DNA from: Deltaproteobacteria bacterium
GTDB taxonomy: Bacteria; Myxococcota; JACPTQ01
Direction: 5' to 3'
DNA length: 64,000 nt
Assembly (NCBI GenBank): GCA_016192705.1
Contig: JACPTQ010000049.1
Span: 1 to 64,000 of the forward strand
The notes beneath the pieces were generated by a model, which worked only from the letters and a program-made list of their open reading frames with translations, had not been told where the DNA came from and did not search any database. The position numbers and the translations under genes are program-made. This document shows positions 42,994-61,595 of this stretch, in pieces (positions within the stretch are counted from its first letter, which is position 1; each line of letters opens with the position of its first letter).

Positions 42994-44001
42994 TCAGCCC
43001 GCGAGGTCGAAATCGACGCGCGCCTCTTTACCGGCCTCAACTTTCACCTTCTTCTCAACGATCTTCGGCGCCGCGTAAATCGCCCGTCCATCTGATTCCG
43101 TCCGTTCAACGTTCCACCCCTCGTGCCACGCGCGAATCGTGTATTCGCCAGGCGGCACGTCCGTTAGCTTGAACTCCCCCTTGTCGTTCGTTACGTGGTG
43201 ATAAGGGTGGTCAACAACGAGAATGAACGCGCTCATCCAAACGTGGATGTCGCACTTCACCTCCATCAGCCCCTTCTTCCGCAACCGCTGCGGATCGCGC
43301 TGCCCCTTGAGCGCCTGCGCCAAGTTAAACAGCTCGGTCCCCTCAAGCGACGGGTGAACGTTGTGGTTAACCGAGTCCGAGTTCACGACCTCGAGTTGCG
43401 TCCCCTTTGTCGCAACCTGAACGTGCGGGTCGTAGGTGCACCCCTTTTGATCGAGCACCGCGTCCTTCTTCTCGACCGGCCGTCCCTTGCGAATATCGGC
43501 AAGCGACACGATCGTGTTTTTCACGCCCTTTGTCGCTCCATCGACATACAACCGCTCGCTCGGTCGCTCGCCATTTGCGCTTCCGCACACCTTCTCATCC
43601 TTCGGCTTGAACTTGAGTGGCGGCAACTTGACAGCGCCGCCCGTCCACTTCACAGCGCCGACGATCGTTCCACCGCCTTCGACCTTCGCGATCTCTTCGT
43701 ATTCGCCATCGCCACCCACTGCGGCCGTTGGCGTCGTCGGCGTCGCGGGCGCGGCCGGCACCGCGGTTGGCGTCGTCGGCGTTGGAGTCGGCGTCGTGGG
43801 TGGCGCAACCGGCACCGCAGCGGGGGCCTCAACCCGCGCCGCCGGAGCCGCAGCGGGCACCGGCACCGCAACCGCTGGATTGATGACCACCGGCTTCATC
43901 GCAGGCGGCTTCGCCGACTCCTCGCCGCGTCGCTTGCATCCACCAAGCGCAAACAACAACGCCGCTCCTCCGACTGCAAAAACTGTCACTCTTGTTTTCA
44001 T
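42994..44001 (-). CDS. Lipoprotein with cupredoxin-like copper site
   Basis: 335 residues: lipobox ALGGC, a 75-residue Pro/Ala/Thr linker, then a domain with VNSDSVNHNVHP and VKCDIHVWMSAF. The His / Cys-x-x-His / Met arrangement is that of type 1 copper sites in plastocyanin-like and methylamine-utilisation proteins. A C-terminal CarboxypepD_reg-like strand set (DKGEFKLTDVPPGEYTIRAW) follows. It lies 33 nt after the eight-haem cytochrome with AAGGAGGG before the ATG, so it is probably an electron-transfer partner in the periplasm. Confidence 0.8.
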   Translation of the reverse strand: MKTRVTVFAVGGAALLFALGGCKRRGEESAKPPAMKPVVINPAVAVPVPAAAPAARVEAPAAVPVAPPTTPTPTPTTPTAVPAAPATPTTPTAAVGGDGEYEEIAKVEGGGTIVGAVKWTGGAVKLPPLKFKPKDEKVCGSANGERPSERLYVDGATKGVKNTIVSLADIRKGRPVEKKDAVLDQKGCTYDPHVQVATKGTQLEVVNSDSVNHNVHPSLEGTELFNLAQALKGQRDPQRLRKKGLMEVKCDIHVWMSAFILVVDHPYHHVTNDKGEFKLTDVPPGEYTIRAWHEGWNVERTESDGRAIYAAPKIVEKKVKVEAGKEARVDFDLAG

Positions 44002-44034
44002 CGCTGACCCTCCTTAACCCCCGGCCTCCCAGTG

Positions 44035-47000
44035 CTACAGCCCGTCCCATGTGACGAGCAAGTCCCGAATCATACGGACCCGCTTCGCCGTGTCACCCTG
44101 CCACGGCCCCGGCGTCTTTTCCCACCCCGCGCGCGGCATGTTCACTCCGGCTTGAACCTTCAACGGATCGTTCAACCACGGAATAAGCCAATCGGGCCGA
44201 AGCCGGTCGGGTCCAAGCGCGAGCGACGGCGCGCGCACCGGCTCGTTGACGTGGCACGCAGGACATCCCAGCGCCGTGAACAGCTCCTTCGCCTTCGGGC
44301 GATCCTCCGCAGACAGTTCCGGCTGGTCGTAGTGCTTGAACGGGTACTCCGCCTTGTTGGTCGACGCGAAATACCACGCGAGCGACGTCGCCTGATCATC
44401 GGTGAACCCAAACGTCGGCATTCGAAGGTCAAGCCACGGTCGCAGCTTCCACGGGTGCTTCAAAAACCCAAACAACCATTCGCTCCGAACCTTCGAACCC
44501 TCGCCGTTCAAAACCGGCGGACCGTACGACTTATCGCTGTACTCTGCGAGAATGTCGCCGCCCTTCTGCTCAATCACGTGGCACCCTTGGCAATTGTGGA
44601 AACGCACGCGATCGCGCCCGCGCTCGACCGCCTGGCGCTCATCCGACAACTTCTTCACGAACTCCTCGCCGTGAATCTCGTGTCCACGCAAGCTCCGCAA
44701 AAAAACCATCAGGTTCTCGATCCGCTCGGCTCCCCGCTTCGCGTCACGCGCGCCCGGCTTAACCGCCGCCTCTTTCGCATCAACGTCAAAGGTAAACTTC
44801 GGCATGCGCAACCGAATACGCTGCGTCTCGTACTGCCGCGGGTCATTCAACTTGCCGCGCACCCAATCGTGCCACGTAATTCGATTCTGTTTCGTGACGG
44901 GGTCTTTTTCGCGCCACGCCTCCTCGAGATACCCAAAGTCGAGCTGCTCCTCGATCTTGGAGCCGATTTCGTTGAGCTCGATCCCAATCTTCGATTCCTT
45001 CTCGGTCCCCTTGATTTCGTGGCAGCCAAAACACCCAAAATTCTTGACGAGCGCCAAACCCGCCTCGACATCGCCCTTCACGAATTTCGGTGCCGCATAC
45101 GCTTTCGCGCGCGTCGCGACGAGAAATTCGACGATGTCGCCCGCTTCGTCGCGCGTCAGCCTAAGGCTCGGCATGGCCGTCGTCGAATTGTGCGCCCGCG
45201 GATTTAATATCCACGACGTGAGGTGACTCTTGGCCGCGTCGGTCGCCGCGATCTTGTTGCCCACGCGCGTGAGCTCGGGTGCGAATTCGGACCCAACAAA
45301 CTTGCCGCCTTCAACGAGGCCGTGGCAGCCAAGACACCCAACCGACTTGATGAGCGCGAGACCGGATTTGCGTCGCTCTTCGGGGGACTTCGCGAGAGCG
45401 GGAGAAGAAGTTAAACGCAAAGGCGCGGAGACGCCAAGGGGAGAGGCTTTTTTTTCTGGGTCTTGGCGGCTTGGCGCCTTAGCGTTGAAATCCCCTGCCG
45501 GTGCGGGTTTGGGCCCAAGCCACCCCGACATGTTCGTCTTCGCCGCTTCTTCCGGCGTCGGTACTTTCGCCTTTTGGTCGATCAAAAAAGCCGTAATCTG
45601 CCGCGCCTGCTCATCACTCAAAAAGAACTGCGGCATCCGCGTCCCGGGGCGATACTCCTGCGGATTCTTGAGCCACGCGTAAACCCAACCCGCGTCGAGC
45701 TTCGTCCCCGCGCTCATCAGCGTCGGCCCGACCTTCTCCAACGCATCGAAAAGCCCCGAGTTGTGACACCCGATGCACCCAATCCGCTTAAACTCAGCCA
45801 TCCCGGCGTTCAACTTTTCCGCCCCCGCGATCTCGGCCACCCCCTCGTGACACTTCCGGCACCCCGACTCCGCGAACCGCCCCTTCTGCATCGGGTCTTC
45901 CCAATACCCCGCCCAACCGTGCCCCGCCTTCTCCATCGTCGCAATCCCTTGCCCACCATGACATGGAGTACAACCGAACTTCTCGACCGGATGCTTCCCC
46001 AAAAGCTCGTGCCGCCGCGGGTGCGTCTCCAAAACCTTCGGAATTTCAATCGGCTGAATCGCCTTTCGCGCCGCCTTCTCATCCCGCTGAACCCACATCG
46101 CAACTTTGCTCGCGATTCCCGACACGGTTTCCGGCGACTCCGCGAGGCTCGCCGCGATCACCTGAACCGCCGTCGTCTCTTTCCCCGCCTTCTTGAGCGC
46201 CGCGAACTCCCGCGCCGCGAGCCACTGCAACAAGTCCTTCTTTAGAACACAGAATTTCGTCGCCATCTCCAGAACGAGCTTCCCGCGCTCGACCTTCAAA
46301 AACTTTTTCGCGGCCTTGTCGTCTTCCGTATCTTCAATTTTCTTCGCCTGGTCTTTCAGTTCCGCTTCGCGCGCCTCAAACGTCCGCGCAATCTCGGCCG
46401 CCGACGAATACCCGCAACTGTCAACCGCCATATGGCACGACTGGCAACGATCGATGAGGTGAATCTTCGGATTGACCACCTGCACGATTTCGGTACCCGA
46501 CGTCTCCTTCGAATTCTTGATTCGCCGATCGACGTCTTCGATGTCTTTGAGCAGATCCTTTTTCTTTTCCTTAAGCGCGTCGAGCTGCCCCACGACCGCT
46601 GCAAGCGCGACCTTCGACTCTTTCACCGCACGCTCTTCGCCCGCAATGACAACATCCTGTTTCGCAATTCGCGCGTCAAAATCCGCGAGTTTCTTTTCCG
46701 ACTCCTTCTGATTCTTTCCCGCTTCCAGCGCGTGCTTCTTAATCTTCGCCAGCTTCGCTTCATCTTTTGCCGTCCGCGCCCGCTCGGCATCCTCGTGCGC
46801 CTTGAACACCTCGAGCGTCGCAAGGTAATGGAGGTAGTACTCCGCGTCCGACTCACTCTTGATGAACGACTTTTGCTGTTCCGCATCCTTAAATCGCGCT
46901 TTCGCTTTGTCGACGTTCGAATGGAGCTCGTTGACGCGCTTGACCATTTCGGGCGTCTTCAGCGCCGTTTCGAACGACGCAATCTGGCCGTCAAGCGACT

Positions 47001-47253
47001 TAAGTTTCCCTTGGCCAGCGGGCGATTCAAGCTCTTCGATGAGGCCCAATCGCTCGCGTTCAAGCTTGTCGAGGCGCAGCTTGAAAAACGCGTTCTGATG
47101 ATGCTTCCAGGGGCGCCGCGAAAACGTCTCGTCGTAAAGCGCCCAGGCCGACACACCAAGGAACATCGACCCGAGGATAAACATGTGAACGTTGTACGAC
47201 TTCGACTCGACCGGCACGCTGTCGATTCGCTTGGGTTTCTCAGCACTTCCCAC
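44035..47253 (-). CDS. Membrane-anchored eight-haem cytochrome c
   Basis: 1072 residues from GTG 47253. One N-terminal transmembrane helix (FILGSMFLGVSAWALY) is followed by a long charged coiled coil (about 45-270) and a C-terminal part with eight CxxCH haem sites: CQSCH, CTPCH, CRKCH, CIGCH, CLGCH, CFGCH, CQGCH, CPACH. Several lie in repeated ~120-residue cytochrome c modules with distal Met ligands. It likely carries electrons in the periplasm to the cupredoxin-like lipoprotein downstream. The partner oxidase or reductase is not in the window. Between the fourth and fifth haem modules the gene contains repeat R1 in frame. Confidence 0.9.
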   Translation of the reverse strand: MGSAEKPKRIDSVPVESKSYNVHMFILGSMFLGVSAWALYDETFSRRPWKHHQNAFFKLRLDKLERERLGLIEELESPAGQGKLKSLDGQIASFETALKTPEMVKRVNELHSNVDKAKARFKDAEQQKSFIKSESDAEYYLHYLATLEVFKAHEDAERARTAKDEAKLAKIKKHALEAGKNQKESEKKLADFDARIAKQDVVIAGEERAVKESKVALAAVVGQLDALKEKKKDLLKDIEDVDRRIKNSKETSGTEIVQVVNPKIHLIDRCQSCHMAVDSCGYSSAAEIARTFEAREAELKDQAKKIEDTEDDKAAKKFLKVERGKLVLEMATKFCVLKKDLLQWLAAREFAALKKAGKETTAVQVIAASLAESPETVSGIASKVAMWVQRDEKAARKAIQPIEIPKVLETHPRRHELLGKHPVEKFGCTPCHGGQGIATMEKAGHGWAGYWEDPMQKGRFAESGCRKCHEGVAEIAGAEKLNAGMAEFKRIGCIGCHNSGLFDALEKVGPTLMSAGTKLDAGWVYAWLKNPQEYRPGTRMPQFFLSDEQARQITAFLIDQKAKVPTPEEAAKTNMSGWLGPKPAPAGDFNAKAPSRQDPEKKASPLGVSAPLRLTSSPALAKSPEERRKSGLALIKSVGCLGCHGLVEGGKFVGSEFAPELTRVGNKIAATDAAKSHLTSWILNPRAHNSTTAMPSLRLTRDEAGDIVEFLVATRAKAYAAPKFVKGDVEAGLALVKNFGCFGCHEIKGTEKESKIGIELNEIGSKIEEQLDFGYLEEAWREKDPVTKQNRITWHDWVRGKLNDPRQYETQRIRLRMPKFTFDVDAKEAAVKPGARDAKRGAERIENLMVFLRSLRGHEIHGEEFVKKLSDERQAVERGRDRVRFHNCQGCHVIEQKGGDILAEYSDKSYGPPVLNGEGSKVRSEWLFGFLKHPWKLRPWLDLRMPTFGFTDDQATSLAWYFASTNKAEYPFKHYDQPELSAEDRPKAKELFTALGCPACHVNEPVRAPSLALGPDRLRPDWLIPWLNDPLKVQAGVNMPRAGWEKTPGPWQGDTAKRVRMIRDLLVTWDGL
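45411..45508 (-). repeat. Coding repeat R1, copy 1 (in cytochrome c)
   Basis: About 98 bp starting AAACGCAAAGGCGCGGAGAC and ending GCGTTGAAATCCCCTGCCGG on the plus strand. Read in the gene direction it is ~90% identical to copy 2 and uses the same frame, coding FNAKAPSRQDPEKKASPLG and then VSAPLRLTSSP. It lies in a linker between haem modules. Confidence 0.92.
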
Positions 47254-48006
47254 GAATTTCGCTCTCCAAAAGTTGTCTACCGGTCGACTCGATTAACACT
47301 TCGCGACGCGGCTCGTCAATTCGAAGTCATCCCTCGATTCCCGGTTAACGGCCAAGACCAGAGTGGGGCGGTCGGGTTTGGGCTCGCTCCGGCTCGCGGA
47401 AGTCCTCGGGTCTGACATGAAATGTGAGTCTGCACGAAATGAATCAAACATCATCAGAACGGCAATTCCATGCCCCATCGGCACCTCATCCCCTGCGGAC
47501 GCGAACCTCCGCTTGCCCAATCCCCGCCCGCCCAACCAGGAACAGGCCGTTCCCCTGGAACGGCGGTTGAGAGACTTGGGGGTCGATCGATCGTCAGTCG
47601 ACACCCAGCGGGTGAACTCTTCGTACAGCCCTCAAGCCTAAGAAACACGTCCCCGGAAAGCGGTCGGCAGGGATTTGCGTGGGGTCGGCAGGGACGCCGC
47701 AGAGGCGCGCCTATTCCGCGAGCAGTCTGTCGGCAAGCCAGCGGCTTGCCGGCGCGAGCGGAATGGCGAGGGCGACGGAACGGAGCCCGCAGCCCCACCT
47801 TTGCGCAGGGTCTGCAGCGTGATATCGGCTTGGAGCATCGAGCTTTCGCGTGCCTCTGACCCGCGGATCGTTCGCACGCCTCAAATCAGACCCGAGGACA
47901 TCGGCGCGCCGAAGCGGGCTCCTGTCGACCCTCACGCTCACGAGCGACCGGACCGCTTAACCGGGGATCGGGGGAAGTCATCGTCTGAAAGCGGTGTTAA
48001 TGTACA
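47254..48006. other. 753-bp intergenic region with two hairpins
   Basis: No convincing gene is found between the divergent cytochrome and TPR genes. It holds two perfect inverted repeats, GCCGTTCC-CCT-GGAACGGC near 47549-47567 and CGGCAAGCC-AGC-GGCTTGCCG at 47731-47751. Open frames crossing them are short and unsupported. It may hold promoters for both neighbours and REP-like elements. Confidence 0.6.
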
Positions 48007-49173
48007 ATGGTTCTCATGTTGGGGCGCATCACGATTTTCGCGTTGATGGGTGGCGTATTGACCGCCGGGACTGCGCGTGCGGAGACGGCGCGCGAGGCGG
48101 CCGAGAAGCTTGCGAAGGCGGGCGATGGTTACGCGAAGCAGGGCGACGCGAAACTCGCGGTGATGGCGTATCGGCGCGCGATTGACCGCGACGCGACGTT
48201 CGCGCCACCTTACGCGGGGATTGGGTATTTGCTGCTCAAGGCCGGCGAGAAGCGGGAGGCCGCGGTTTTTTTTGACCGGTACCTGGCGCTCGAGACAAGG
48301 CCGTCGGAGGCGGCGAACGTTGCGCGCGTCAACGAGGCGCTCGCGGGCATTCGACCGAAGGCCGCTCCCGCGCCCGCACCCGTAACCGCTCCCGCAGCCG
48401 CTGGCGCTCCCGCACCCGCTCCCGCAGCGGATTTCAACGCCAAGGCGCCAAGCCGCAAAGACCCAGAAAAAAAAGCCTCTTCCCTTGGCGTCTCCGCGCC
48501 TTCGCGTTTAACTTCTTCTCCCACACCCGCAACCGCCTCATCACTCCGCGACGCCGACCAGCTCTTTCGCCGACGCGATTACAAAGCCGCGGCCGCCGCC
48601 TACCAAAAACTTGCCGCCGCTTCGAAGACCGCCACGGAACCTCGCTTCAAGCTCGCTGTCGCGCTCACCGCCCTCGCACGCTGGAAGGAAGCGCTCGCCG
48701 CATGGGATGACGTTCTCGCCGTCGATCCAAAGAACGCCGCGGCTCGGCTCTACCGAGAGCGCGTCGCCGAAAAAGCCGCGAAAGTCATCGACGCCGCTCT
48801 GCTGCCCGCCGACGACGCCGTCAAGCGCGCCGCAATCGCCCTCGGCGACGGTTCGCCAAGCTTAACGCTCCGCCTGACCGGAAGCGTCCTCGCGACGACG
48901 CCCGACCGCGCCGATGCGCTCATTCTCCGTGCGCGCGCCTTCGCCGCCCTCGGTCGCTTCGACGACGCCGTGACCGCCGTTCGCCGCGCGCTCTCGCAAA
49001 ATCCCGGCGACCCTCGCGCGCACTTCGCTCTCGGCGAAACGCACCGAGCCCTCGGTGAACGCGACAAGGCCCGCGCTGCGTTTTTGCGCTTCCTCGCGAT
49101 CGTCGACGCGACCGACGCCAACTTCGCACGCGACATCGCCTTCGCGCGCCGTTACGTCGAGAGCCAACCGTGA
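48007..49173 (+). CDS. TPR-repeat periplasmic protein
   Basis: 388 residues from ATG 48007 (48016 is an alternative) with a signal peptide ending TARA. Two TPR units at about 30-95 are followed by an Ala/Pro linker, then five to six TPR-like helices pairs from about 180 to the end (ALDDVLAVDPKNAAARLY, ALSQNPGDPRAHFALGE). It is a scaffold for protein interactions, partner unknown. The linker at about 141-175 is repeat R1 plus CCGCTCCCG-type microsatellite. It is followed closely by the RMD1-like and YqaA-ApbE genes. Confidence 0.85.
   Translation: MVLMLGRITIFALMGGVLTAGTARAETAREAAEKLAKAGDGYAKQGDAKLAVMAYRRAIDRDATFAPPYAGIGYLLLKAGEKREAAVFFDRYLALETRPSEAANVARVNEALAGIRPKAAPAPAPVTAPAAAGAPAPAPAADFNAKAPSRKDPEKKASSLGVSAPSRLTSSPTPATASSLRDADQLFRRRDYKAAAAAYQKLAAASKTATEPRFKLAVALTALARWKEALAAWDDVLAVDPKNAAARLYRERVAEKAAKVIDAALLPADDAVKRAAIALGDGSPSLTLRLTGSVLATTPDRADALILRARAFAALGRFDDAVTAVRRALSQNPGDPRAHFALGETHRALGERDKARAAFLRFLAIVDATDANFARDIAFARRYVESQP
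48429..48530 (+). repeat. Coding repeat R1, copy 2 (in TPR protein)
   Basis: Same orientation relative to the gene and same frame as copy 1: FNAKAPSRKDPEKKASSLG then VSAPSRLTSSP. It is flanked on the left by (CCGCTCCCGCA)n-like DNA. Confidence 0.92.
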
Positions 49174-49183
49174 GGTCACGATA

Positions 49184-50305
49184 ATGGTTCGCCACGCTGA
49201 GATAAAAGTCGCGTCGGGCGAAATTGTCGTCTATCGACTCTTCGACGTTGCGGACGCCATCGACCTCACGCGCGCCGAAACCGCCTTGCGCGCCGGAACA
49301 TTGCCGCGCCTGTCATTTCGCCGCGCCGGTTACCGCTCGATCGAGTTGCCGAATCCACCCGCGACCGTTGATCTCGGAACGCAATCGATCGAGCTCGGCT
49401 CGGCGACGCTCCACTGCGACTGCTCGGCGCGCATCTACGACGTCGGCTCGCTGTCGATCCAGGTGCGGATCCCCATCGCGCGCGGAACACCGTTTGACGA
49501 CATCGTCGCGCTCTCACCACTCATCGACGACAATATCTCGCTCGAGCAGCTCACGCGCCGCCTCGCCGACGAGCTCTCGCACCGCCTCGCGCCGGCCTCC
49601 GAGCGCTCGCACCACTGGGCCACACGCGAGGAGTACACCGTTTTCTTCGTGCGCGAATTCGCGCCATCTCTGAGCGCCGACCAAGCCCTCGAACGACTCG
49701 ACATCGCGCGACTCTTGCTCGGTGAACCATCCGCCGCAAAGCTCTCCGACCGCGAACGCGAAGACGTCTTGAAGCGCCGCCTCTCCTACTTCGACGACGA
49801 CGTCGCCGTCATCGACTGGAACAGCGCCTTCGTGCTCGAACCATCCGGCGCGCGCGACATCCCCGACCTTCTCGAGTTCGCAACCACGCAGCTCCTCGAA
49901 TTGCGCTACTACGACGCGCTCCTCGATCGCGAACTCGCGCAAACGTACGACCAGTTCGACGCGCTCGGCGGCCGCACGGTGCTCATTAACCTCGGACGCT
50001 ACACCGCACTCTCACGACGCCTCTTGCGCCTCTCCGTTGAAATCTCGGAAATCACGGAGCGCATCGACAACAGCCTCAAAATCATCGGCGACTTCGCACT
50101 CGCGCGGGTTTACCAGGCCGCCGTCGATCGCTTTCGCATCGCGCACTGGCAGCGCTCCATCGACCGCAAAGAGGCGATCATCCTTCAAATCTACAACTTG
50201 CTTCACAATCAAATCACCGCGTCGCGGAACCTCATCTTGGAAGGCGCGATCGTTCTCCTCTTCGTGCTCGACCTCATCCTTCTCTTCTTGGTCAAGGCGA
50301 AGTAA
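49184..50305 (+). CDS. C-tail-anchored membrane protein, RMD1/DUF155-like
   Basis: ATG 49184 gives 373 residues. The plan resembles the RMD1/DUF155 family: an N-terminal beta-rich part (VYRLFDVADAIDL), a middle helical part with RREEYTVFFV-like and SYFDDDVAVIDWNSAFV segments, a coiled region (LSRRLLRLSVEISEITERI) and a single C-terminal transmembrane helix (ILEGAIVLLFVLDLILLFLV). Function is unknown in bacteria. It ends 3 nt before the YqaA-ApbE gene and starts 10 nt after the TPR gene, so the three look like one operon. Confidence 0.7.
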   Translation: MVRHAEIKVASGEIVVYRLFDVADAIDLTRAETALRAGTLPRLSFRRAGYRSIELPNPPATVDLGTQSIELGSATLHCDCSARIYDVGSLSIQVRIPIARGTPFDDIVALSPLIDDNISLEQLTRRLADELSHRLAPASERSHHWATREEYTVFFVREFAPSLSADQALERLDIARLLLGEPSAAKLSDREREDVLKRRLSYFDDDVAVIDWNSAFVLEPSGARDIPDLLEFATTQLLELRYYDALLDRELAQTYDQFDALGGRTVLINLGRYTALSRRLLRLSVEISEITERIDNSLKIIGDFALARVYQAAVDRFRIAHWQRSIDRKEAIILQIYNLLHNQITASRNLILEGAIVLLFVLDLILLFLVKAK

Positions 50306-50308
50306 CGC

Positions 50309-51826
50309 GTGACCTACGCAACGGGTCTCGTTCTCGGCTTTTTCGGAACAACGTTTTGGTTCGTCAGCGCCGAGACGTACGTTGTCGCGAAGTCGCCGTC
50401 GCTCAGTTGGCCAATGCTCCTCGTCGTCTGTGCCGCGTGCGGACAGGTCGCGGGGTTCACGGCGCTCTACTTTCTCGGTGAAAAGATTCTGCGACGATTG
50501 AAGCGACTGCGCGCGAAGGTCGAGACGTTCGACGTCAGCCGTTTCCAAAAATCGACCTACGGCGTTCTCGCCGCGTCAAGCGTTTTGGGCTTTCCGCCGC
50601 TTTCGGTCGTCGCGGTCGCCTCGGGCACAATTCGTCTCAAGTATTCGACGTTTTTCCCGTTCGCGCTCGTCGGGCGCATCATCCGGTTCACGATCGTATT
50701 GTTGCTGGGTCAACAGTTTCTCGCGCTGACGTGCGCGGGGGAAGGAATCAAACGCAAAGGCGCCGAGACGCCAAGGGAGGAGGCTTCTTTTTTGGGGCCT
50801 CTGCGGCTTAGCGCCTTGGCGTTGAAATCCCCTTGGGATGCGGGAGCGGCCCGCGAAGTCGTTCGGCGTTCGCGCGTGCAGATGGGGACGACGGTGTCGT
50901 TCAGCGCGGTTGGTGACGAAACCCACGTGGCGCGGGCGTTTGACGAGGCGTTCACCGAGATCGAGCGCTTCGAAGCGATGGCGAGTGAGTACCGCCCCGA
51001 CAGTGTCATATCGACGCTGAATGAAAACGCGGGCAGACGACCCGTCGACATTCCCGACGACCTCTTCGCGCTCATCGAGCGTTGCCTCGCGCTTTCGCGC
51101 GAATCAGGCGGCGCCTTCGACGTCACGTTTCTCGGCATGGGAAAAATTTGGGATTTCCGCGCCGACCCACCACGCGTTCCCGACGCAAAGCTTGTTGAAA
51201 CCGAACGCAAGCGCATCGACCACCGCCGACTTCGCCTCGACGCCGTCAAAAAAACGGCCTTCCTCGAACGCGCGGGAATGCGCGTCGGGCTTGGCGCCAT
51301 CGGCAAGGGCCAAGCGATCGATCGCGCGGCAACGATCTTTCGCCGCCACGGCCTCGCGAATTTTCTCGCAGCGGCGAGCGGCGACCTTTACGTCGCCGGG
51401 TCGAAACCGGGCGGCGCACCGTGGCAAATCGGAATCCAGCATCCGCGCGATCCCACGCGGCTCGTGGCTCGCCTCACCGTTCGCGATCGCGGCGTCTCGA
51501 CGTCGGGCGATTACGAGCGCTTCTTTGTCGCGCAGGGACGCCGCTTCCACCACATCATTGATCCGCGCACCGGCTACCCGGCCGACGGTCTCGCGAGCGT
51601 GACCGTCATCGCACCCGACGCAACAACATCGGACAGCCTCTCAACCGCCGCCTTCGTTCTTGGTCCCGCACGCGCTCTCGATTTTCTCGCGAAGCACCCC
51701 GGTGTCGACGCACTCCTCATCGACACGCGCGGCCGCATCACCCTAACGCCCGGCTTTCGCGCGCTCGTTCGGTTCGAGCCGCCGGCCACGGAGTCCCACG
51801 CAGGCGGCGACTTTTATCGCCCGTAG
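50309..51826 (+). CDS. Fusion of YqaA/VTT-like membrane domain with ApbE flavin transferase
   Basis: 505 residues from GTG 50309. Residues 1-145 have about four hydrophobic helices and a VTT/YqaA-like core (FPPLSVVAVASGTIRL, VGRIIRF). Residues 180-505 are an ApbE FMN transferase: GAIGKGQAIDR, AASGDLYVAG, STSGDYERFF, HHIIDPRTGYP and TSDSLSTAAFVLG. ApbE flavinylates Thr in RNF/NQR-type or FMN-binding proteins, outside the inner membrane and with Mg2+. Normal ApbE has its own signal peptide; here the membrane domain replaces it. Repeat R1 (about residues 147-178) lies exactly at the junction. The C-terminal tail EPPATESHAGG comes from repeat R5. A frame-preserving gene fusion by R1 is likely. 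Confidence 0.85.
   Translation: MTYATGLVLGFFGTTFWFVSAETYVVAKSPSLSWPMLLVVCAACGQVAGFTALYFLGEKILRRLKRLRAKVETFDVSRFQKSTYGVLAASSVLGFPPLSVVAVASGTIRLKYSTFFPFALVGRIIRFTIVLLLGQQFLALTCAGEGIKRKGAETPREEASFLGPLRLSALALKSPWDAGAAREVVRRSRVQMGTTVSFSAVGDETHVARAFDEAFTEIERFEAMASEYRPDSVISTLNENAGRRPVDIPDDLFALIERCLALSRESGGAFDVTFLGMGKIWDFRADPPRVPDAKLVETERKRIDHRRLRLDAVKKTAFLERAGMRVGLGAIGKGQAIDRAATIFRRHGLANFLAAASGDLYVAGSKPGGAPWQIGIQHPRDPTRLVARLTVRDRGVSTSGDYERFFVAQGRRFHHIIDPRTGYPADGLASVTVIAPDATTSDSLSTAAFVLGPARALDFLAKHPGVDALLIDTRGRITLTPGFRALVRFEPPATESHAGGDFYRP
50747..50843 (+). repeat. Coding repeat R1, copy 3 (at the YqaA-ApbE junction)
   Basis: Opposite orientation relative to the gene compared with copies 1 and 2: it codes IKRKGAETPREEASFLGP then LRLSALALKSP. 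Starts AAACGCAAAGGCGCCGAGAC, ends near GTTGAAATCCCC. Confidence 0.92.
51773..51808 (+). repeat. Repeat R5, copy 1
   Basis: 36 bp with GCCGCCGGCC and GGCGGC ends (imperfect palindrome), matching 53043-53078 at 34 of 36 positions. It forms the last codons of the ApbE fusion gene. Confidence 0.88.
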
Positions 51827-51900
51827 AACCCGCGTGTAAGCGAATGTAAGCGGTGCGCGCGGTCGAGTCGGTCTATCGTCAAGACTTTCAATGGAGGTTG

Positions 51901-53028
51901 ATGGAAATGAATCGATTAGCTCTCGCGCTGCTCGTGCCAGCCTGCGGCGTTTGGCAAGCCGAATCGCAGAAGGCTCCACAACAACATTCTTCGTCGCTTC
52001 AAGAACGCGCGACGCCGTCGTCGACTCGAAGGTACGCGGCGGCCCCCGGAACCGAGTCCGATGCAAAACGCACAGCGGCGGTGACAATCGCTCCCAGCGA
52101 CTGCCCCGTCGATATGGCGGCCGACATCGAATCGCGGTCGATCGACACGCGCAAGGCGCCGCCCGCGGAGCGCAGCGTCGACACGCGGCGTGGACGTCCC
52201 AAAACCCTCAAGGCGCCGAAGCGTGTGGCCTGGGTTCGCGGACATCGAAAACCGGTAGCCCCCTCCTTCGCCCTCGAGCCCTCGAAGGCGGTGGACCAGG
52301 CTCTCGACATCGAGAAAACAAACATGACCAACATCCCCGCGGGTTTCAGGTCGCGGGTCGCCGCATCTCCACGCGACGCGTCGCTTCGACTCGAATTAGC
52401 ACGCTGTGAACTCCGTACCCCCGCGACACGGCGCCGCGCAAGTTATGACGCCGCCGTCGCGCTTCTCCTCGGGGCGCCGCGCGAACAGGTCGAGCCGGTT
52501 CTACTCGAAGCGACGGAAAACGAGAGCAACACCAACAACAGCTTTAGGTCGTGCGACGGGGCGTCGTCCTGCCCGAGCGGAATGGCGTGCGATCGCGGTT
52601 ACTGCCTAAACGCCTTCGGCAGCGCTGTTTCCTTCATCTCGAAAGCCGACCTGGCGATCGAGGACACGCTCTCGCGGGCACTTTGGAAAGTGGCACGGGA
52701 CACGGACCGCACGGCGTCGCGGCGAAAAACTGGCGCGGACTGGTGGCTCCTCCGGCGCCTCCACAAATGCGGAAAACACGTTTGCTCGTTCGAGGAGTAT
52801 GCCGCGCGCGAGGGCACGGCGCTCGTTCGTTGGGATCGCCGCGACGGGGGCGAAGTCGTTACGATTAAGCGGAATCTGACGCCGGGCGAAAAGGCGATTC
52901 TCGCCGCCAAAACTCGATGCTGGGAGCGGACGGGGTGGCAAACGCGTGGGAGTTGTTTACAGATGTGCGAAGTGCGAATGCAAGGGGCCGGCTGTCGAAC
53001 AAGCTGCTACGCCCACTGCTCCCTTTGA
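51901..53028 (+). CDS. Cysteine-containing putative lipoprotein
   Basis: ATG 51901 (or 51907) follows TGGAGG and opens a short lipoprotein-like signal (LALALLVPAC). About 375 residues follow: a low-complexity Arg/Pro/Ala stretch, a helical middle and a cysteine cluster at the C-terminus (CLQMCEVRMQGAGCRTSCYAHC). There is also a CPSGMACDRGYC motif of the kind seen in myxobacterial surface lipoproteins. No family recognised. Confidence 0.7.
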   Translation: MEMNRLALALLVPACGVWQAESQKAPQQHSSSLQERATPSSTRRYAAAPGTESDAKRTAAVTIAPSDCPVDMAADIESRSIDTRKAPPAERSVDTRRGRPKTLKAPKRVAWVRGHRKPVAPSFALEPSKAVDQALDIEKTNMTNIPAGFRSRVAASPRDASLRLELARCELRTPATRRRASYDAAVALLLGAPREQVEPVLLEATENESNTNNSFRSCDGASSCPSGMACDRGYCLNAFGSAVSFISKADLAIEDTLSRALWKVARDTDRTASRRKTGADWWLLRRLHKCGKHVCSFEEYAAREGTALVRWDRRDGGEVVTIKRNLTPGEKAILAAKTRCWERTGWQTRGSCLQMCEVRMQGAGCRTSCYAHCSL

Positions 53029-53042
53029 TCTCGCTCACACCT

Positions 53043-53078
53043 TTCGAGCCGCCGGCCACAGAGTCCCACGCGGGCGGC
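53043..53078 (+). repeat. Repeat R5, copy 2
   Basis: Same 36-bp unit as 51773-51808 with two mismatches, here 15 bp after the lipoprotein stop and in the same orientation. The space to 53246 holds nothing else that I can support. Confidence 0.88.
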
Positions 53079-53246
53079 ACGTTTGACAATCACGCGCCCC
53101 CGACGCGCTAAGACCGCACCCCGACATCTTTTTCAGCGCCCCCAACACGGTTCTGCCCTCCCCGGACACAGTTTTGGGCGTCCATCACGCAATGGGAGCA
53201 TTTTCTGCCGTGAATCTGGCGGCTTCTTGGCGGATCGCGCGCGAAA

Positions 53247-56200
53247 TTATTGCTGAAAAACGGCGAAGTATTGCCGCGGGAGACCACCGATCGTCGTGAA
53301 GTCGCCCCCCGCGTACAAGAGGCCCCCCGAGACCGCGAGCGCCCAGGGCGTGTTGTTCGCATTCGGGTTCCAGGCGGTCGCGAGTCCAGCGTCGTCGATC
53401 GCCGCGATGTAGTTTCGGCCCGCGTCGCCGATGTTGTTGAAGTCGCCGCCCACGTAAACCAGGCCGCCAGAGACCGTGAGCGCGTTGACCCCCTGGTCCG
53501 GGTTCGGGTTCCAGGCCGTCGCGAGCCCCGCGTCGTCGAGCGCCGCGATATTGTTACGGCCCGCGTCGCCGATGGTCGTGAAACCCCCGCCCGCGTAAAC
53601 CAATCCGTCCGAGACCGTGAGTTCGGAAACCGAGCTGCTTGGCGCGTTCGGGTTCCAGGCCGTCGCGAGGCCGGCGTCATCGAGCGCCGCGATGCGGTTC
53701 CGGCCAGCGTCGCCGATGCTCGTGAAAGAACCGCCCGCGTACACAATGCCCCCCGAGACCGCGAGCACGTCAACATAGCTGCCCGCGTTCGGGTTCCAGG
53801 CCGTCGCGAGAGCGGCGTCGTCGAGCGCCGCGATGTAGTTTCGTCCCGCGTCGCCAATGCTCGTGAAAGAACCCCCCGCGTAAACTAGGCCCCCCGAGAC
53901 CGCGAGCGCCCGGACCGAACCGATCGGCGCATTCGGGTTCCAGGCCGTCGCAAGGCCAGCGTCATCGAGCGCCGCGATGCGGTTCCGGCCCGCGTCGCCG
54001 ATATTCGTGAACGAACCCCCCGCGTAAACCAGGCCCCCCGAGACCGCGAGCGCCAGTACATCGGAACTGGCGTTTGGGTTCCACGCCGTTGCTGCCCCAG
54101 TTCCATCGAGCGCCGCGATTCGATTTCGGTTCGCGCCACCGAAGCTCGTGAAAAACCCCCCCGCGGAAACCCAACCGTTCGAGACCGCCAGCGCGTTGAT
54201 TTGGCCGCCTGCGTTTGGGTTCCAAGTCGTCGCGACGCCGGTGCCATCAATCGCCGCGATGTAGTTCCGGCCCGCGTCGCCGATGCTCGTGAATACGCCC
54301 GCGGCGTAAACCAGGCCCCCTGAGACGACGAGTTCGCTGACCGTGCTGTTCGCGTTTGGGTCCCAGGCCGTCGCAAGCCCAGCGTCATCGAGCGCCGCGA
54401 TTCGACTTCGGCCCGCGTCGCCGATACTCGTGAACGAACCCCCCGCATAAACCAGGCCCCCCGAGGCGGCGAGCACGTTGACCGCGCTGCTCGCGTTCGG
54501 GTCCCAGGCCGTCGCAAACCCGTCGCCATCGAGCGCTGCGATGTATTTTCGGCCCGCGTCACCGATGGTTGTGAAGTTTCCCCCCGCGTAAACCAGGCCC
54601 CCCGAGGCGGCGAGCGTGTAAACCGAGCTGCTCGCGTTCGGATTCCAGGCCGTCGCGAGGCCGGCGTCGTCGAGCGCCGCAATGTATTTTCGGCCGGCAT
54701 CGCCGATCGTCGTGAAAAATCCGCCCGCGTAGACCAGGCCCCCCGACACCGCGAGAGCGGTGACTGTGCCATTCCCGTTCGGATTCCAGGCTGTTGCGAC
54801 GCCGGTGCTATCGATCGCCGCAAGTCGGTTTCGGCCCGCATCGCCGATCGTCGAGAAGGCCCCGCCCGCGTAAACCAGATTCCCCGACACCGCGAGCGCG
54901 GAAACCTGGCTGCCCGCGTTCGGGTTCCATGCCGGATCGACGTCGCCGCTCGCAAGAATATGCGCGATTCGATTTCTCGTTTGCCCGTTCACGGTTAAGA
55001 ATTGGCCGCCGATATACCAGCCCCCCGCGTCGTCGCTCGCGATGGCACTGACGTCACCATCGACGCGCAACCAAGTGAGCGTCACCTTCGCCGTCGTTTC
55101 GTTGATTGCGACGAACGACCCGGTCGGCGGCCCAACGTGTGTGAACTTCCCGCCGATATAAACAAGCCCGTCCGATTCCGCGATCGCAAACACCGTTTGG
55201 TTCGCGACCCAGAAGTAGTCGAGCGGCGAATCGGGGTTTTTCCGATAACCGGGGTCGACGGTCGACAAGCCGCCGTCAGAGCCGCCGACCGACGCGAGGC
55301 AGCGATACCAGCGCCGGTGCCCGTTCGCGGGTGCTCCCACGTCATCGAACGATGCGCCAGTTCCTCCATCAAGATCGGTCGGGTAAGGATCATTCTCGTC
55401 GCGAAGGACCTGCCATTGGCACGCGATGTCACCTCCACGATACCCCGTGTCCGCCGCTGACCACGCGCTCGCGTCGATCGAGTTCTTCGCCCGCACCTTG
55501 TAACTCGACACGGCGCCGCCCGCCACGCTCGCGCCCGAGAGGGTGAGCGCGACGTGAGTCGTGTAGGTTCCGTCCGATGCGGTCGCATTGCCCGCCGAAG
55601 CCAGTACCCGCGGGGGTGCGCCGTAGTCCTCGAACGAAGTCGTCGATACCTCGGCCAACCCAGCGTCGTCCCTCGAAACGAGATAGCTCGTCGCGCCCAC
55701 GCTCGCGTCCCACGTGACGAGAACGTGCGTGCTGAATATTCCGTCGGATGCGACAACGCCCGTCGGAGCTTCGGGTGGTGACCCAGCATCTAAACCCGCG
55801 CCCGCATCCGCACCGGCGCCACCATCCGCTCCCGCGCCCGCATCGGACGAGGTGCAAAAAACGCCCGCCGCGCAGACGTAATTCAGCGTAACGACCTTTG
55901 CGCCGCCTCCGAATTGAATCGGCTGGAGCGCGTCGGTCACGGTCGAGACGGCTTCCGCGACGATCTCGATATTCCCCGCGTTCGTCCGATAGATTCTCCC
56001 CAGCACATTAAACCCATTACCGAGGGGATCGCCGGATAAGGAAAGCGCCCACGAAAGCTGACTCGTGAAAGGATTCGACAGCGCGCTCACTTTCCCTTCG
56101 AGTTTTCCGTCGCCATCAACATCGCCAACTTCGAAGCTGTACGGAATCCCGTCGGCCACACCTTGCGTGACCGCGCGCGCCTCGGCGTAGAGCGAACCGG

Positions 56201-56438
56201 CGTCAGTGGGTTCGTCGAGAATGGTATGAATCTGCGAAATGGTGGCGCGAACGTCAGTCAAGAAACCCACGGGGAGCTGGTGGCGGATTTCGATAGTCTT
56301 TGACGTATCGACCACCGTGGTTGTGCATCGAAGCGTGAGCACGGCGGCGATACAACCGACCCAGCAGCGAGCGAAATCGATGCGCGGCCCGTTGCCCACG
56401 ATTGCCAATGTAGCACGTGGGCTACTCAACTTGAACAA
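53247..56438 (-). CDS. Large secreted protein with FN3-like domain and ~12 propeller-like repeats
   Basis: 1063 residues. An N-terminal signal region is followed by an unknown domain (to about 195), an Asp/Ala/Gly linker, an FN3-like stretch (PTGVVASDG ... TWDASVGATSYLVSRDD), and from about residue 400 a run of ~44-residue units. Each unit carries LVYAGGSFTSIGDAGRN, RIAALDDAGLATAWNPN; WNPN/WDPN occurs 12 times. This resembles the DUF5122/delta-60 propeller repeats of surface proteins. The DNA of the units (about 53290-55000) is strongly homogenised, indicating recent duplication or recombination, and is a likely place for assembly error. The role is probably adhesion or binding (inference). 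Confidence 0.85.
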   Translation of the reverse strand: MFKLSSPRATLAIVGNGPRIDFARCWVGCIAAVLTLRCTTTVVDTSKTIEIRHQLPVGFLTDVRATISQIHTILDEPTDAGSLYAEARAVTQGVADGIPYSFEVGDVDGDGKLEGKVSALSNPFTSQLSWALSLSGDPLGNGFNVLGRIYRTNAGNIEIVAEAVSTVTDALQPIQFGGGAKVVTLNYVCAAGVFCTSSDAGAGADGGAGADAGAGLDAGSPPEAPTGVVASDGIFSTHVLVTWDASVGATSYLVSRDDAGLAEVSTTSFEDYGAPPRVLASAGNATASDGTYTTHVALTLSGASVAGGAVSSYKVRAKNSIDASAWSAADTGYRGGDIACQWQVLRDENDPYPTDLDGGTGASFDDVGAPANGHRRWYRCLASVGGSDGGLSTVDPGYRKNPDSPLDYFWVANQTVFAIAESDGLVYIGGKFTHVGPPTGSFVAINETTAKVTLTWLRVDGDVSAIASDDAGGWYIGGQFLTVNGQTRNRIAHILASGDVDPAWNPNAGSQVSALAVSGNLVYAGGAFSTIGDAGRNRLAAIDSTGVATAWNPNGNGTVTALAVSGGLVYAGGFFTTIGDAGRKYIAALDDAGLATAWNPNASSSVYTLAASGGLVYAGGNFTTIGDAGRKYIAALDGDGFATAWDPNASSAVNVLAASGGLVYAGGSFTSIGDAGRSRIAALDDAGLATAWDPNANSTVSELVVSGGLVYAAGVFTSIGDAGRNYIAAIDGTGVATTWNPNAGGQINALAVSNGWVSAGGFFTSFGGANRNRIAALDGTGAATAWNPNASSDVLALAVSGGLVYAGGSFTNIGDAGRNRIAALDDAGLATAWNPNAPIGSVRALAVSGGLVYAGGSFTSIGDAGRNYIAALDDAALATAWNPNAGSYVDVLAVSGGIVYAGGSFTSIGDAGRNRIAALDDAGLATAWNPNAPSSSVSELTVSDGLVYAGGGFTTIGDAGRNNIAALDDAGLATAWNPNPDQGVNALTVSGGLVYVGGDFNNIGDAGRNYIAAIDDAGLATAWNPNANNTPWALAVSGGLLYAGGDFTTIGGLPRQYFAVFQQ

Positions 56439-56467
56439 AGCGCTGGCCGTTGCGATTTGCGCGTAAT

Positions 56468-57787
56468 TCAGTTCGGAACGTCGCGCCCCTCGACGTCGTC
56501 GTCCTTCACTTCCCCCGGCTTCGGCGGCCGGAGCCCATGGTCACGCGACCTCCCGCGCATCTTCTTTCGCTCCACGTCCTGCGGCGTCTCCGGCGTCGCC
56601 GCGACGCTGGAACCCGCGCCCCGCTTTGGCGCCGCCTTGCCGCCCAACGTCTTTTGAAAGTAATCGACGTTCTTCGTGTGTTCGCCGTACGTCCGCGTAA
56701 AAACGTGGCTCCCGTCGTTCTTCGACACGAAAAAGAAAAACTCCGTTCGCTCGGGCTTTATCGCCGCGCGGAGCGCATCCTCGCCTGGACTCGCGATCGG
56801 ACCCGGTGGCAAGCCCTTGACGTGGTACGTGTTGTACGGGTGCGCGATCCGAATGTTCGCGAGTGTGATGTTGCACTTCGACTTTTTCCACCCCTCGACC
56901 TCGTTGATCGCGTAACACGTCGTCGGGTCGGTCTGTAGAAACCACGCGGGTTTCGCGCGCAACCGATTGTGAAACACGCTCGAAATGAGCGGCCGCTCCT
57001 CGGCACGCCCCGTCTCCTTCTCGATGATCGAGGCAAGCGTCACGACCTTGTGCAAATCGAGCGCGTGCTCCGCGCCCTTTTCCTCGAGCTCAAGGCGCCT
57101 CTTCGCGTTCAAAAACTGCTTCACCATCGTTTTCATGATCGTCTTAGCGTCGGCGCCGAGCGGAAACGTATACCGTGCTGGATAGAGGTACCCTTCGATG
57201 CGAGGCGGCACACGCGCGGCCCTGAACGAATCAAGCGCCTCTTTCGGCAACCCGAGCTCGAGAAAAAATTTCGGGTCGGTCGCCGCTGCGAGAAATTCGG
57301 ATGCGCTGACAATCTTCTTCTCCTCGAAGCGCCACGCGATTTCGTGCAGGTTGAACCCTTCCGGCACCGTCACGTTCCGCACGAACTGCACCGGTTCGCC
57401 GTACAGCGTCTTCAAAACATCGGCCGGCTTCATCGACGCGTGAAACGCGAACGTCCCCGCCTTGATGCTCCCCGACTTCAGTTTTTGTGGTTCCTCGATT
57501 TTCGCAAAAATCTTGAAGATAAGTTCGTTCGCAATGAGCCCATCCACGGCAAGCTGCGCCGCGACCGACTTGAACGTCGCGCCTTTTGTGATTTCGACGA
57601 AACGGTATCCGTCCACGACAAACTGCTCGCGCAAGTCGGCATCGGCAATTCGCGGAACCTTGAGGCGCGGCTCTGTGACGCCTTGCGCGGGGCTCGACCG
57701 GAAATCCTCGTACACGAAAAGCGCTGCGCCGCCCGCCGCCACGGCAAAAAACAAAAGAAACGACAGCGGCAAAATCACTTTTCTCAT
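56468..57787 (-). CDS. mltG: Endolytic murein transglycosylase MltG
   Basis: 439 residues with one N-terminal transmembrane helix, a LysM-like segment (GATFKSVAAQLAVDG) and the YceG catalytic domain: Glu256 in ASIIEKETG, VFHNRL, LQTDPTTCYA and YHVKGLPPGPIASPG. MltG cuts nascent glycan strands in the periplasm and sets their length. The C-terminal ~55 residues form a charged tail beyond the usual family end. ATG overlaps the ruvX stop by 4 nt, a frequent pairing. Confidence 0.95.
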   Translation of the reverse strand: MRKVILPLSFLLFFAVAAGGAALFVYEDFRSSPAQGVTEPRLKVPRIADADLREQFVVDGYRFVEITKGATFKSVAAQLAVDGLIANELIFKIFAKIEEPQKLKSGSIKAGTFAFHASMKPADVLKTLYGEPVQFVRNVTVPEGFNLHEIAWRFEEKKIVSASEFLAAATDPKFFLELGLPKEALDSFRAARVPPRIEGYLYPARYTFPLGADAKTIMKTMVKQFLNAKRRLELEEKGAEHALDLHKVVTLASIIEKETGRAEERPLISSVFHNRLRAKPAWFLQTDPTTCYAINEVEGWKKSKCNITLANIRIAHPYNTYHVKGLPPGPIASPGEDALRAAIKPERTEFFFFVSKNDGSHVFTRTYGEHTKNVDYFQKTLGGKAAPKRGAGSSVAATPETPQDVERKKMRGRSRDHGLRPPKPGEVKDDDVEGRDVPN

Positions 57788-58209
57788 TTTTTCCTCGCCG
57801 ACAAGAACTCCTCAAGTATCACGGCCGCCGCGGCTCCGTCGATTCGCCGCTTGCGCTCGCGCTTAAACCGCGCGCTGTTCGGCGCCGCGACCCGAAGCCG
57901 CTCGGCCGCCGCGACCGTCGAAAACCGCTCATCCCACGTCAGAACCGGCACCCGCACCCGCGCACGCAACGCCTCCACAAACTCTAAGACGTTTGCCGCC
58001 GCCTTTCCGATCTCTCCGTCGCGACCAAACGGTACCCCAACGACGACGCCCTCAAACTCCCCCTCCTCGATATAGCGTGCAAGCGCCGCAAGGTCCTTTT
58101 CGCGCCCCACGCGTTCGAGCGGCTCGTCCGGCGTCACCACGATTTCGAACGCGTCGCAGTGTGCGCGCCCAATCCGCCGCGAGCCGTAATCAAGCGCCAA
58201 AAACCGCAT
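57784..58209 (-). CDS. ruvX: Putative pre-16S rRNA nuclease / Holliday junction resolvase-like YqgF
   Basis: 141 residues with the RNase H-like fold of YqgF: LALDYGSRRIGRA with the catalytic Asp, VVVGVPFGRDGE, VLTWDERFSTVAA and a final DGAAAVILEEFL with the last Asp. Involved in 16S rRNA 5' processing in E. coli. Coupled to mltG. Confidence 0.93.
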   Translation of the reverse strand: MRFLALDYGSRRIGRAHCDAFEIVVTPDEPLERVGREKDLAALARYIEEGEFEGVVVGVPFGRDGEIGKAAANVLEFVEALRARVRVPVLTWDERFSTVAAAERLRVAAPNSARFKRERKRRIDGAAAAVILEEFLSARKK

Positions 58210-58251
58210 CGCGCCGCAGCATTACGAGGATCGCGACGAATTGTAAAGTGT

Positions 58252-59403
58252 TCAGGAAATCCCAAGCATTGCAAGAATTTCCGCGGTGTGCTCGCCAAGA
58301 CGTGGTGGCGGCCGATCAAGAGCACCCGGCGTCTCGGCGAGTTTCACCGGAATCCCGATCTGCGGAACGTCGCCGGTGACAGGGTGTTTGACCGTTGTCA
58401 CCATGCCGCGCGCGCGAAGCTGCGGGTGCGCGAGTGCCTCAGCGACCGTGTTGATCCGCCCCGCGGGGATGTCGGCCGCCTCAAACTTCGAAACCCACGA
58501 ATCAACCGGCGCCGTCATGAACGCCGCTTGGAGCTCCTCAAACAGTGCGTCGCGATGGGCCACGCGATCGGGATTTGTCGCAAAGCGCACATCCCGCGCG
58601 AGATCGGGCCGCCCGATCGCCTCGCACGCCTTTCGAAAATGGCCGTCGTTCGCAGCCGCTAAATTGAAGTAGCCGTCCGCCGCGCGAAACGTCTCGTACG
58701 GCACAATCGACGGATGCCGATTCCCGGCGCGCGTCGCCGTTCGCCCCGACGTCATCGTGCTCGCCGCCTGAAACGTGAGAAGCGACGTGAGCGCGTCTTG
58801 GAGCGACACATCGACGTGCTGCCCGCGCCCCGTTTTCTCGCGCACCAAGAGCGCCAGCAAAATCCCCTGCACGGCGTACAGCCCCGACGCGAGGTCGGCG
58901 ATCGAAACGCCCGTCTTCATCGGTGGCCCCGCGGGATCCCCCGTGAGCGACTGCACCCCGCAAAGCCCCTGGATGATGAGGTCGTAACCCGGTTTCGCCG
59001 AAAACTCCCGAATCCCCGACTGCCCATACCCCGTGATGCTGCACGTCACAAGCCGCGGGTTCTCCGCGCGCAGCCCGTCGAGCCCGAGACCCAGCCGCTC
59101 GAGCGTCCCCGGCCGAAAATTCTCGACGCACACATCCGAAACCCGCGCAAGCGCCCGCACCACCTCGCGCCCGCGCTCCGATTTCAAATCGAGCGCAACC
59201 GATCGCTTTCCGCGATTCACGCTCATAAAATACGTCGACTCGCCCGCGATGAACGGCGGCCCAAACGCCCGCGCATCGTCGCCCCCCTTCGGATGCTCGA
59301 GTTTCACGACGTCCGCGCCCATATCCGCGAGGTGCATCGTCGCGAACGGCCCCGACAGCACCCGCGACAGGTCGAGCACGCGAACCCCATCGAGAGGTTT
59401 CAT
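58252..59403 (-). CDS. CaiB/BaiF-type CoA transferase
   Basis: ATG 59403 is preferred over 59409 because GGAGG (59414-59410) is 6 nt upstream of it but directly abuts the other. 383 residues of family III CoA transferase: VRVLDLSRVLSGPF, ADVVKLEHPKGGD, the catalytic Asp170 (SIADLASG) and FTFQAAST-like region. It moves CoA between carboxylic acids; the substrate cannot be told. The ribosome site is supplied by repeat R2. Confidence 0.93.
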   Translation of the reverse strand: MKPLDGVRVLDLSRVLSGPFATMHLADMGADVVKLEHPKGGDDARAFGPPFIAGESTYFMSVNRGKRSVALDLKSERGREVVRALARVSDVCVENFRPGTLERLGLGLDGLRAENPRLVTCSITGYGQSGIREFSAKPGYDLIIQGLCGVQSLTGDPAGPPMKTGVSIADLASGLYAVQGILLALLVREKTGRGQHVDVSLQDALTSLLTFQAASTMTSGRTATRAGNRHPSIVPYETFRAADGYFNLAAANDGHFRKACEAIGRPDLARDVRFATNPDRVAHRDALFEELQAAFMTAPVDSWVSKFEAADIPAGRINTVAEALAHPQLRARGMVTTVKHPVTGDVPQIGIPVKLAETPGALDRPPPRLGEHTAEILAMLGIS

Positions 59404-59409
59404 GGCCAT

Positions 59410-59452
59410 CCTCCGTGAAACCTCCGTGGTTCAGTGCCTCCGTGGTTTCTCT
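59410..59452. repeat. Dispersed repeat R2, copy 2
   Basis: On the minus strand, three CACGGAGG/CCACGGAGG units occur in about 40 bp directly upstream of the CoA transferase start. The last GGAGG acts as its Shine-Dalgarno sequence. Confidence 0.75.
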
Positions 59453-59459
59453 TTATTCC

Positions 59460-60140
59460 TTACGCGTTCACGACGCGCGCCGGCGCCGCGTGCGGCTTAT
59501 TCCAGAACGCGATTCGGTACGCGATGTATCCGACCAAGAGCCCGCCAAAGCTGTCGACGACGTAATGCTGCTTCGTCGTGAGAATCGACACAGCCAAGCA
59601 AAGCGCCATCCCGATCGTCACCAAGCCCGAGCGCTTGTTATCGCGGAATGTGCTCAAGGCGCACGCGAACGAGAGCGCCACGTGCGACGAGGGGAACGTG
59701 TTGTTCGCGACGTCGATCTGCCGCACCCATTGAAGAAACGAAACATGCCAGTAATGGGTTCCGTCTGGGAGATCCGGCCGCGGGTAGCTCGACGGCACCG
59801 AAAGAAAAAACGCGCAGCAGATGACCATCCCGATTGCGATGCTCCCGAGCGTGCGGAAATAGATCTCGCGCTTACGAATGGAAAAGGTGGAGACGTGAAA
59901 AATAAGGACGTAAAACGGCAGATAACACCAAACCGTCCACGGCCAAAACGGGACCCAGTTGTCGATTTCAAGGTAAAACGCGGTCTGGCGCGCCGCGGTG
60001 AACTCGCCAATCCAGGTGTAAAGGAAGTAGCAGCATCCCGCGAACGTTAGGCTCCAGACGTATTTCTCGAGCTGCCACTGCCAGGTCAATTTTTCAGTTT
60101 TCTCGTCCACGCCTTCTCCGAAGCGAAAATCCGACACCAT
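59460..60140 (-). CDS. PAP2-family phosphatase / inositol-phosphorylceramide synthase-like membrane protein
   Basis: 226 residues with about six transmembrane helices and the PAP2 catalytic motifs: PSSHVALS with the active-site region, and KQHYVVDSFGG with the final His and Asp. Related to the PAP2_3 group of lipid phosphatases and phosphoinositol ceramide synthases, so lipid head-group exchange at the membrane is plausible. It starts at the base after the stop of the VOC gene. Confidence 0.88.
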   Translation of the reverse strand: MVSDFRFGEGVDEKTEKLTWQWQLEKYVWSLTFAGCCYFLYTWIGEFTAARQTAFYLEIDNWVPFWPWTVWCYLPFYVLIFHVSTFSIRKREIYFRTLGSIAIGMVICCAFFLSVPSSYPRPDLPDGTHYWHVSFLQWVRQIDVANNTFPSSHVALSFACALSTFRDNKRSGLVTIGMALCLAVSILTTKQHYVVDSFGGLLVGYIAYRIAFWNKPHAAPARVVNA

Positions 60141-60590: not shown

Positions 60591-60643
60591 CGTGTGGGAC
60601 CATTACCGCAAATCGGGGGGCACGTTAAGAGGGAGGAGACTCG

Positions 60644-61210: not shown

Positions 61211-61216
61211 AACTCT

Positions 61217-61588: not shown

Positions 61589-61595
61589 ACCGACG

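Follow-up and report, generated by a model that had tools for sequence, protein, structure and literature searches.

The question raised by this locus is how a YqaA/DedA-like (VTT) membrane domain and an ApbE flavin transferase came to be read as one protein across a copy of a dispersed palindromic repeat, referred to here as R1, and whether the repeat made the fusion. The locus lies in a 64,000-nucleotide stretch of a Myxococcota genome (the window). The genome is 5.2 Mb in 88 contigs.

The fused ORF begins with a GTG codon directly 3' of the stop of the upstream gene and continues for 505 codons without interruption. Codon-usage scores favour one shared frame on the VTT side and on the ApbE side of R1. 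The repeat covers amino acids 146-176, precisely where one domain gives way to the other, and makes up the entire VTT-ApbE linker. This segment is predicted to be disordered in the structure model. Because this copy of R1 has no stop in the frame connecting VTT to ApbE, a single protein composed of VTT, the R1 linker, and ApbE is predicted. The stop of VTT and the signal peptide of ApbE are both absent, and R1 is found in their place and in that of any spacer. The coordinates of the features are listed in Table 1.

Table 1. Features of the VTT-ApbE locus and other R1 copies in the window.
Feature	Position	Strand	Details
Fused ORF, VTT membrane domain - R1 - ApbE	50309-51826	+	505 aa, GTG start
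VTT (YqaA/DedA-like) membrane domain, intact up to its natural C-terminus	50309-50740	+	PF09335 (sub-threshold) and stand-alone relatives
R1 copy, imperfect palindrome forming the whole linker	50745-50836	+	Frame +2, approximately GIKRKGAETPREEASFLGPLRLSALALKSP
Possible internal ApbE start within R1	50775-50794	+	Shine-Dalgarno-like GGGAGGAGG at 50775-50783, in-frame TTG at 50792-50794
ApbE (FAD:protein FMN transferase) domain with characteristic motifs, lacking its own signal peptide	50858-51718	+	PF02424, PDB 4xdt, pLDDT
R1 copy in TPR protein 48007-49173	48423-48514	-	In-frame type I peptide
R1 copy within multihaem cytochrome gene 44035-47253	45408-45499	+	Type I peptide, minus-strand reading
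R1 copy just past the sulfatase domain in ORF 62570-64000	62935-63018	-	Type II peptide

The VTT domain matches its family weakly. VTT_dom (PF09335) aligns with residues 36-135 at an E-value of 5.9e-7 and 30.4 bits, and the domain searched alone reaches 32.1 bits, against a curated cut-off of 33.9. The assignment is nevertheless backed by two full-length stand-alone VTT relatives from genomes of the phylum (G004 and G009), which are 31-32% identical. These relatives stop no more than about six residues from the position at which R1 starts, and their C-termini (...QQVLAWFGL* and ...QTFAAWFKA*) align with ...QQFLALTCAGEG of the fusion, directly before R1. The domain calls, the ends of these relatives, and the predicted start of the ApbE fold agree in placing R1 at the exact YqaA-ApbE junction, as the earlier note had claimed. 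The VTT region is poorly predicted in both structure models, with a confidence too low for topology. The loop at residues 57-80 contains positive charges, which suggests that it is cytoplasmic, and the R1 peptide contains lysines and arginines directly after the last VTT helix, a feature that makes a periplasmic ApbE less certain.

The ApbE part is matched by PF02424 at residues 192-470 (E-value 3.9e-82) and by PDB 4xdt (E-value 1.3e-50). Its first strand is predicted at residues 184-191, just past R1, and pLDDT is mostly above 80-90 from residue 184 onward. By its predicted fold and conserved motifs, the flavin transferase is complete after R1. In ApbE relatives from the phylum, a signal peptide is located directly upstream of the MGT motif, which is the position of R1 in the fusion. 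No N-terminal signal or lipobox belonging to ApbE itself was identified in the fusion. In the other ApbE of the genome (contig C27, 130094-130987, in the segment 126000-134000), the N-terminus is of the lipobox type, MAKRLRLLIGLSLLCLGC. A single FMN_bind protein was found in the genome (C27, 128087-128284), approximately 2 kb from this second ApbE.

ApbE transferases, which are usually extracytoplasmic and membrane-anchored, couple FMN to target proteins (PMC12052999). The fusion contains the whole domain with the motifs typical of these transferases, but where the usual ApbE has an N-terminal lipoprotein or signal peptide, it has the VTT membrane domain and the R1 peptide. As a natural fusion of ApbE, that source names the one with fumarate reductase in trypanosomatids, whereas the partner here is VTT. 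Cytosolic ApbEs without a signal also exist (PMC12052999). The VTT helices may now tether ApbE to the membrane, such that extracytoplasmic targets would still be flavinylated. The protein would then be a periplasmic ApbE anchored by VTT.

Two other repeats are located at or near the 3' end of the fusion. A 36-nucleotide direct repeat (FEPPATESHAGG) is present at 51773-51808, in the C-terminus of the fusion, and at 53043-53078, just past the next gene. It has only these two copies in the genome, and they flank gene 51853-53028. The repeat is possibly a duplication made on the arrival of that gene. ORF 53247-56438 (minus strand, 1063 aa) contains many 141-nucleotide (47-residue) repeats (SGGLVYAGGSFT...) and, judged from its sequence, is like a repeat-rich propeller protein.

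R1 is best explained as a palindrome of approximately 92 bp that is, or once was, mobile. The palindrome is imperfect, with inverted arms of 27-33 nucleotides that are 73-85% complementary. A covariance model built from 28 copies locates R1 at about 84 places in the genome. The copy in the fusion has an RNA fold z of -2.85, and its closest other copy shares 78 of 92 bases. Its left and right halves have different nearest copies, with differences that are small and unclear, and recombination between two copies now in the genome was rejected as its origin. R1 as a structured RNA family was likewise rejected, there being no Rfam match in 44000-64000. The possibility of a REP/REPIN moved by a RAYT was also set aside: the search of the whole genome for a mobilising enzyme returned no Y1 (IS200-like) transposase (PF01797). 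Among 58 genomes of the same phylum, including that of the window, related palindromes were found in only one other (G013). The palindrome of that genome (TCACGCAAAGACGC...GCGTCTTTGCGTGA) is present in about 18 places. In contrast to R1, it has no clear coding-frame preference and often lacks coding flanks. G+C-rich hexamer tracts (for example, CCCGCTCCCGCA), which read as Pro-Ala runs, often flank R1, as at three example loci.

The frame in which R1 is read was assessed from the DNA around every copy, using a codon score trained on 164 long ORFs. Sixty-eight copies have a clear coding context. R1 is read in frame -1 in 43 of these, in frame +2 in 21, and in one of the other four frames in only 4. 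Those four frames are nonetheless often open (56, 55, 48, and 15 copies). The two favoured frames therefore account for 64 of 68 copies where 27.6 would be expected under a random open frame (P approximately 2e-24), on a score that depends on flanking codons and may include the G+C-rich tails beside R1. Because of this dependence, the assignments were cross-checked by protein families, and in most of 40 R1 proteins, Pfam domains are present in the assigned frame. In-frame passage through R1 is thus the normal behaviour of the element and no special event at VTT-ApbE.

Each favoured frame encodes one peptide of about 30 residues, type I (approximately DFNAKAQRSKDARNETSSLGVSAPLRQIPAP) and type II (approximately QRKDAETQREEASFLAPSRLGVLALNP). 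Neither is matched in Pfam or NCBIfam up to E = 1. The copy in the fusion is type II. In most copies, frame +2 contains a stop, the TGA of TTTGACGC; the sequence here is TCAAACGC. Third-position diversity is 0.205 in the frame -1 copies (versus 0.174 and 0.162 for the other positions) and 0.237 in the frame +2 copies (versus 0.184 and 0.206), and copies with no assigned frame have no third-position excess. Strong selection on the peptide was rejected on this weak excess. Since third-position diversity is only slightly raised, the proteins probably tolerate the peptide more than they need it.

R1 is also found inside conserved enzymes. Compared with solved structures, methylenetetrahydrofolate reductase (MTHFR) advances from residue 150 to 178 while the reference chain advances from 114 to 119, D-Ala ligase from 174 to 216 while the reference advances from 94 to 115, and a DegT aminotransferase from 264 to 301 while the reference advances from 291 to 298. 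At R1, these three enzymes contain roughly 20-30 extra residues relative to distant homologues. Elsewhere, R1 lies between the Hpt and P2 domains of CheA, between MoCoBD_1 and MoCoBD_2 of xanthine dehydrogenase (a molybdopterin oxidoreductase), and between kinase and PEGA domains, and it adjoins the catalytic domain of a tyrosine recombinase. A NarJ-like protein contains two copies. Genes with two copies, each in frame, were seen at four loci. In at least three genes, R1 forms a C-terminal tail, in every case in the frame used by the fusion.

Translated palindromes that spread within genes are best known from Rickettsia. R1 is well supported as an element of this kind outside that genus: it is a dispersed palindrome, it occurs in frame inside unrelated genes, and it encodes a conserved peptide. 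The Rickettsia palindromic elements (RPEs) are likewise short palindromes of many copies that lie in frame in unrelated genes, including those of metabolic enzymes, and are translated (Ogata et al. 2000, 2002, via PMC10969869). They are about 150 bp long, whereas R1 is about 92 bp and belongs to a 5.2-Mb genome that is not that of a Rickettsia. Nearly half of the 44 RPEs of R. conorii are within ORFs (PMC10969869), compared with about three quarters of R1 copies that are intragenic and in frame (64 of 84). Unlike the RPEs, one R1 copy makes up the whole of the linker in a protein of two fused domains. R1 is called RPE-like and not RPE, as its peptides have no family match; it is set apart at the level of peptide models and Rfam. 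Intragenic MITE- and ERIC-type elements with ORFs also belong to the small, non-autonomous palindromic repeats, and they can contribute peptides to genes (PMC10969869; PMC2759123). Those are described as mainly intergenic with some intragenic copies, whereas R1 is mainly intragenic and has a strict choice of two frames. Literature searches for the R1 core motif, for a combination of VTT and ApbE, and for the topology of DedA proteins returned nothing relevant.

The VTT-ApbE fusion was then sought in other genomes. It was absent from 195 genomes of the phylum, from 398 genomes of another phylum, and from 12 further genomes. An old and widespread fusion, which the earlier note had named as a finding that would speak against a repeat-made origin, is thereby rejected, and no R1-free form was seen in this sample, in which the nearest relatives are related only at the phylum level. 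The 398 genomes of the other phylum contain 15 VTT relatives in open frames of 137-289 aa. The arrangement that the note had proposed as support, two separate adjacent genes in relatives lacking R1, did not appear: VTT and ApbE were seen as separate neighbours in no genome, and the only two VTT-bearing genomes of the phylum have no ApbE gene beside VTT. The upstream gene (49187-50302, 372 aa) encodes a C-terminal hydrophobic segment and matches no Pfam family above the cut-off; 121 of 193 genomes of the phylum contain relatives of it. Synteny through this gene was tried at 19 phylum loci and discarded, with neither VTT nor ApbE located within 1.5 kb. No relative with adjacent VTT and ApbE genes was found, so the origin of the fusion remains inferred.

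In the proposed course of events, a copy of R1 would have landed downstream of a VTT coding sequence and ahead of an ApbE gene, and its arrival, or recombination at R1, would have made the fusion. With R1 at the 3' end of VTT and no stop after it, reading would continue into the next gene. The C-terminal tails formed by R1 are in the frame of the fusion; therefore, a copy at the 3' end of VTT could extend into the next gene. That an RPE-like R1 bridged two genes at this locus is given an even chance or marginally better. The VTT domain is intact as far as R1, a complete ApbE fold follows, and the signal peptides of the ApbE relatives are at the position of R1. Against this, a fusion formed by another route with R1 entering the linker later would look identical, the genome search turned up no Y1 transposase as a mobilising enzyme, and the order of events is not readable from one genome whose nearest relatives share only its phylum. 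More generally, it can be suggested tentatively that a coding palindrome with a constant frame is a ready-made linker that joins genes, either by landing at a gene end or by recombination of in-frame copies, with VTT-ApbE as one recent product.

Bridging by R1 has to be weighed against an ordinary deletion that fused VTT and ApbE, with R1 entering the linker later, as it has done in numerous linkers elsewhere in the genome. R1 is indeed common in the linkers of established architectures, such as those of CheA, xanthine dehydrogenase, and the kinase-PEGA protein. This order of events is considered rather unlikely, as the older linker would be reduced to a few residues on either side of R1, and the R1-free fusion it passes through is absent from the approximately 600 genomes, a sample without close relatives. 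It is improbable that R1 instead supplies the signals for separate initiation of ApbE (ribosome-binding site and TTG start codon), in which case ApbE would be produced mainly on its own and translation running on from VTT would be incidental. The in-frame TTG is 8 nucleotides from GGGAGGAGG, but the same purine-rich stretch is common to R1 copies deep within genes, VTT and ApbE have no stop between them, and the resulting N-terminus would have only a short hydrophobic stretch and no convincing signal peptide. Least probable is an assembly chimera at a repeat. A genome in 88 contigs with about 84 copies of R1 invites such an error. The similarity of the fusion's copy to its nearest counterpart is, however, at a level that assemblers normally resolve, a single coding frame is shared by the two flanks, and the fusion sits well within its contig.

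The R1 family, with about 64 in-frame copies that include housekeeping enzymes, allows the tolerance or use of such insertions by proteins to be tested in bacteria that are not obligate intracellular ones. Should R1 have built VTT-ApbE, the locus would be a clear case of an element of this kind creating a new domain fusion.
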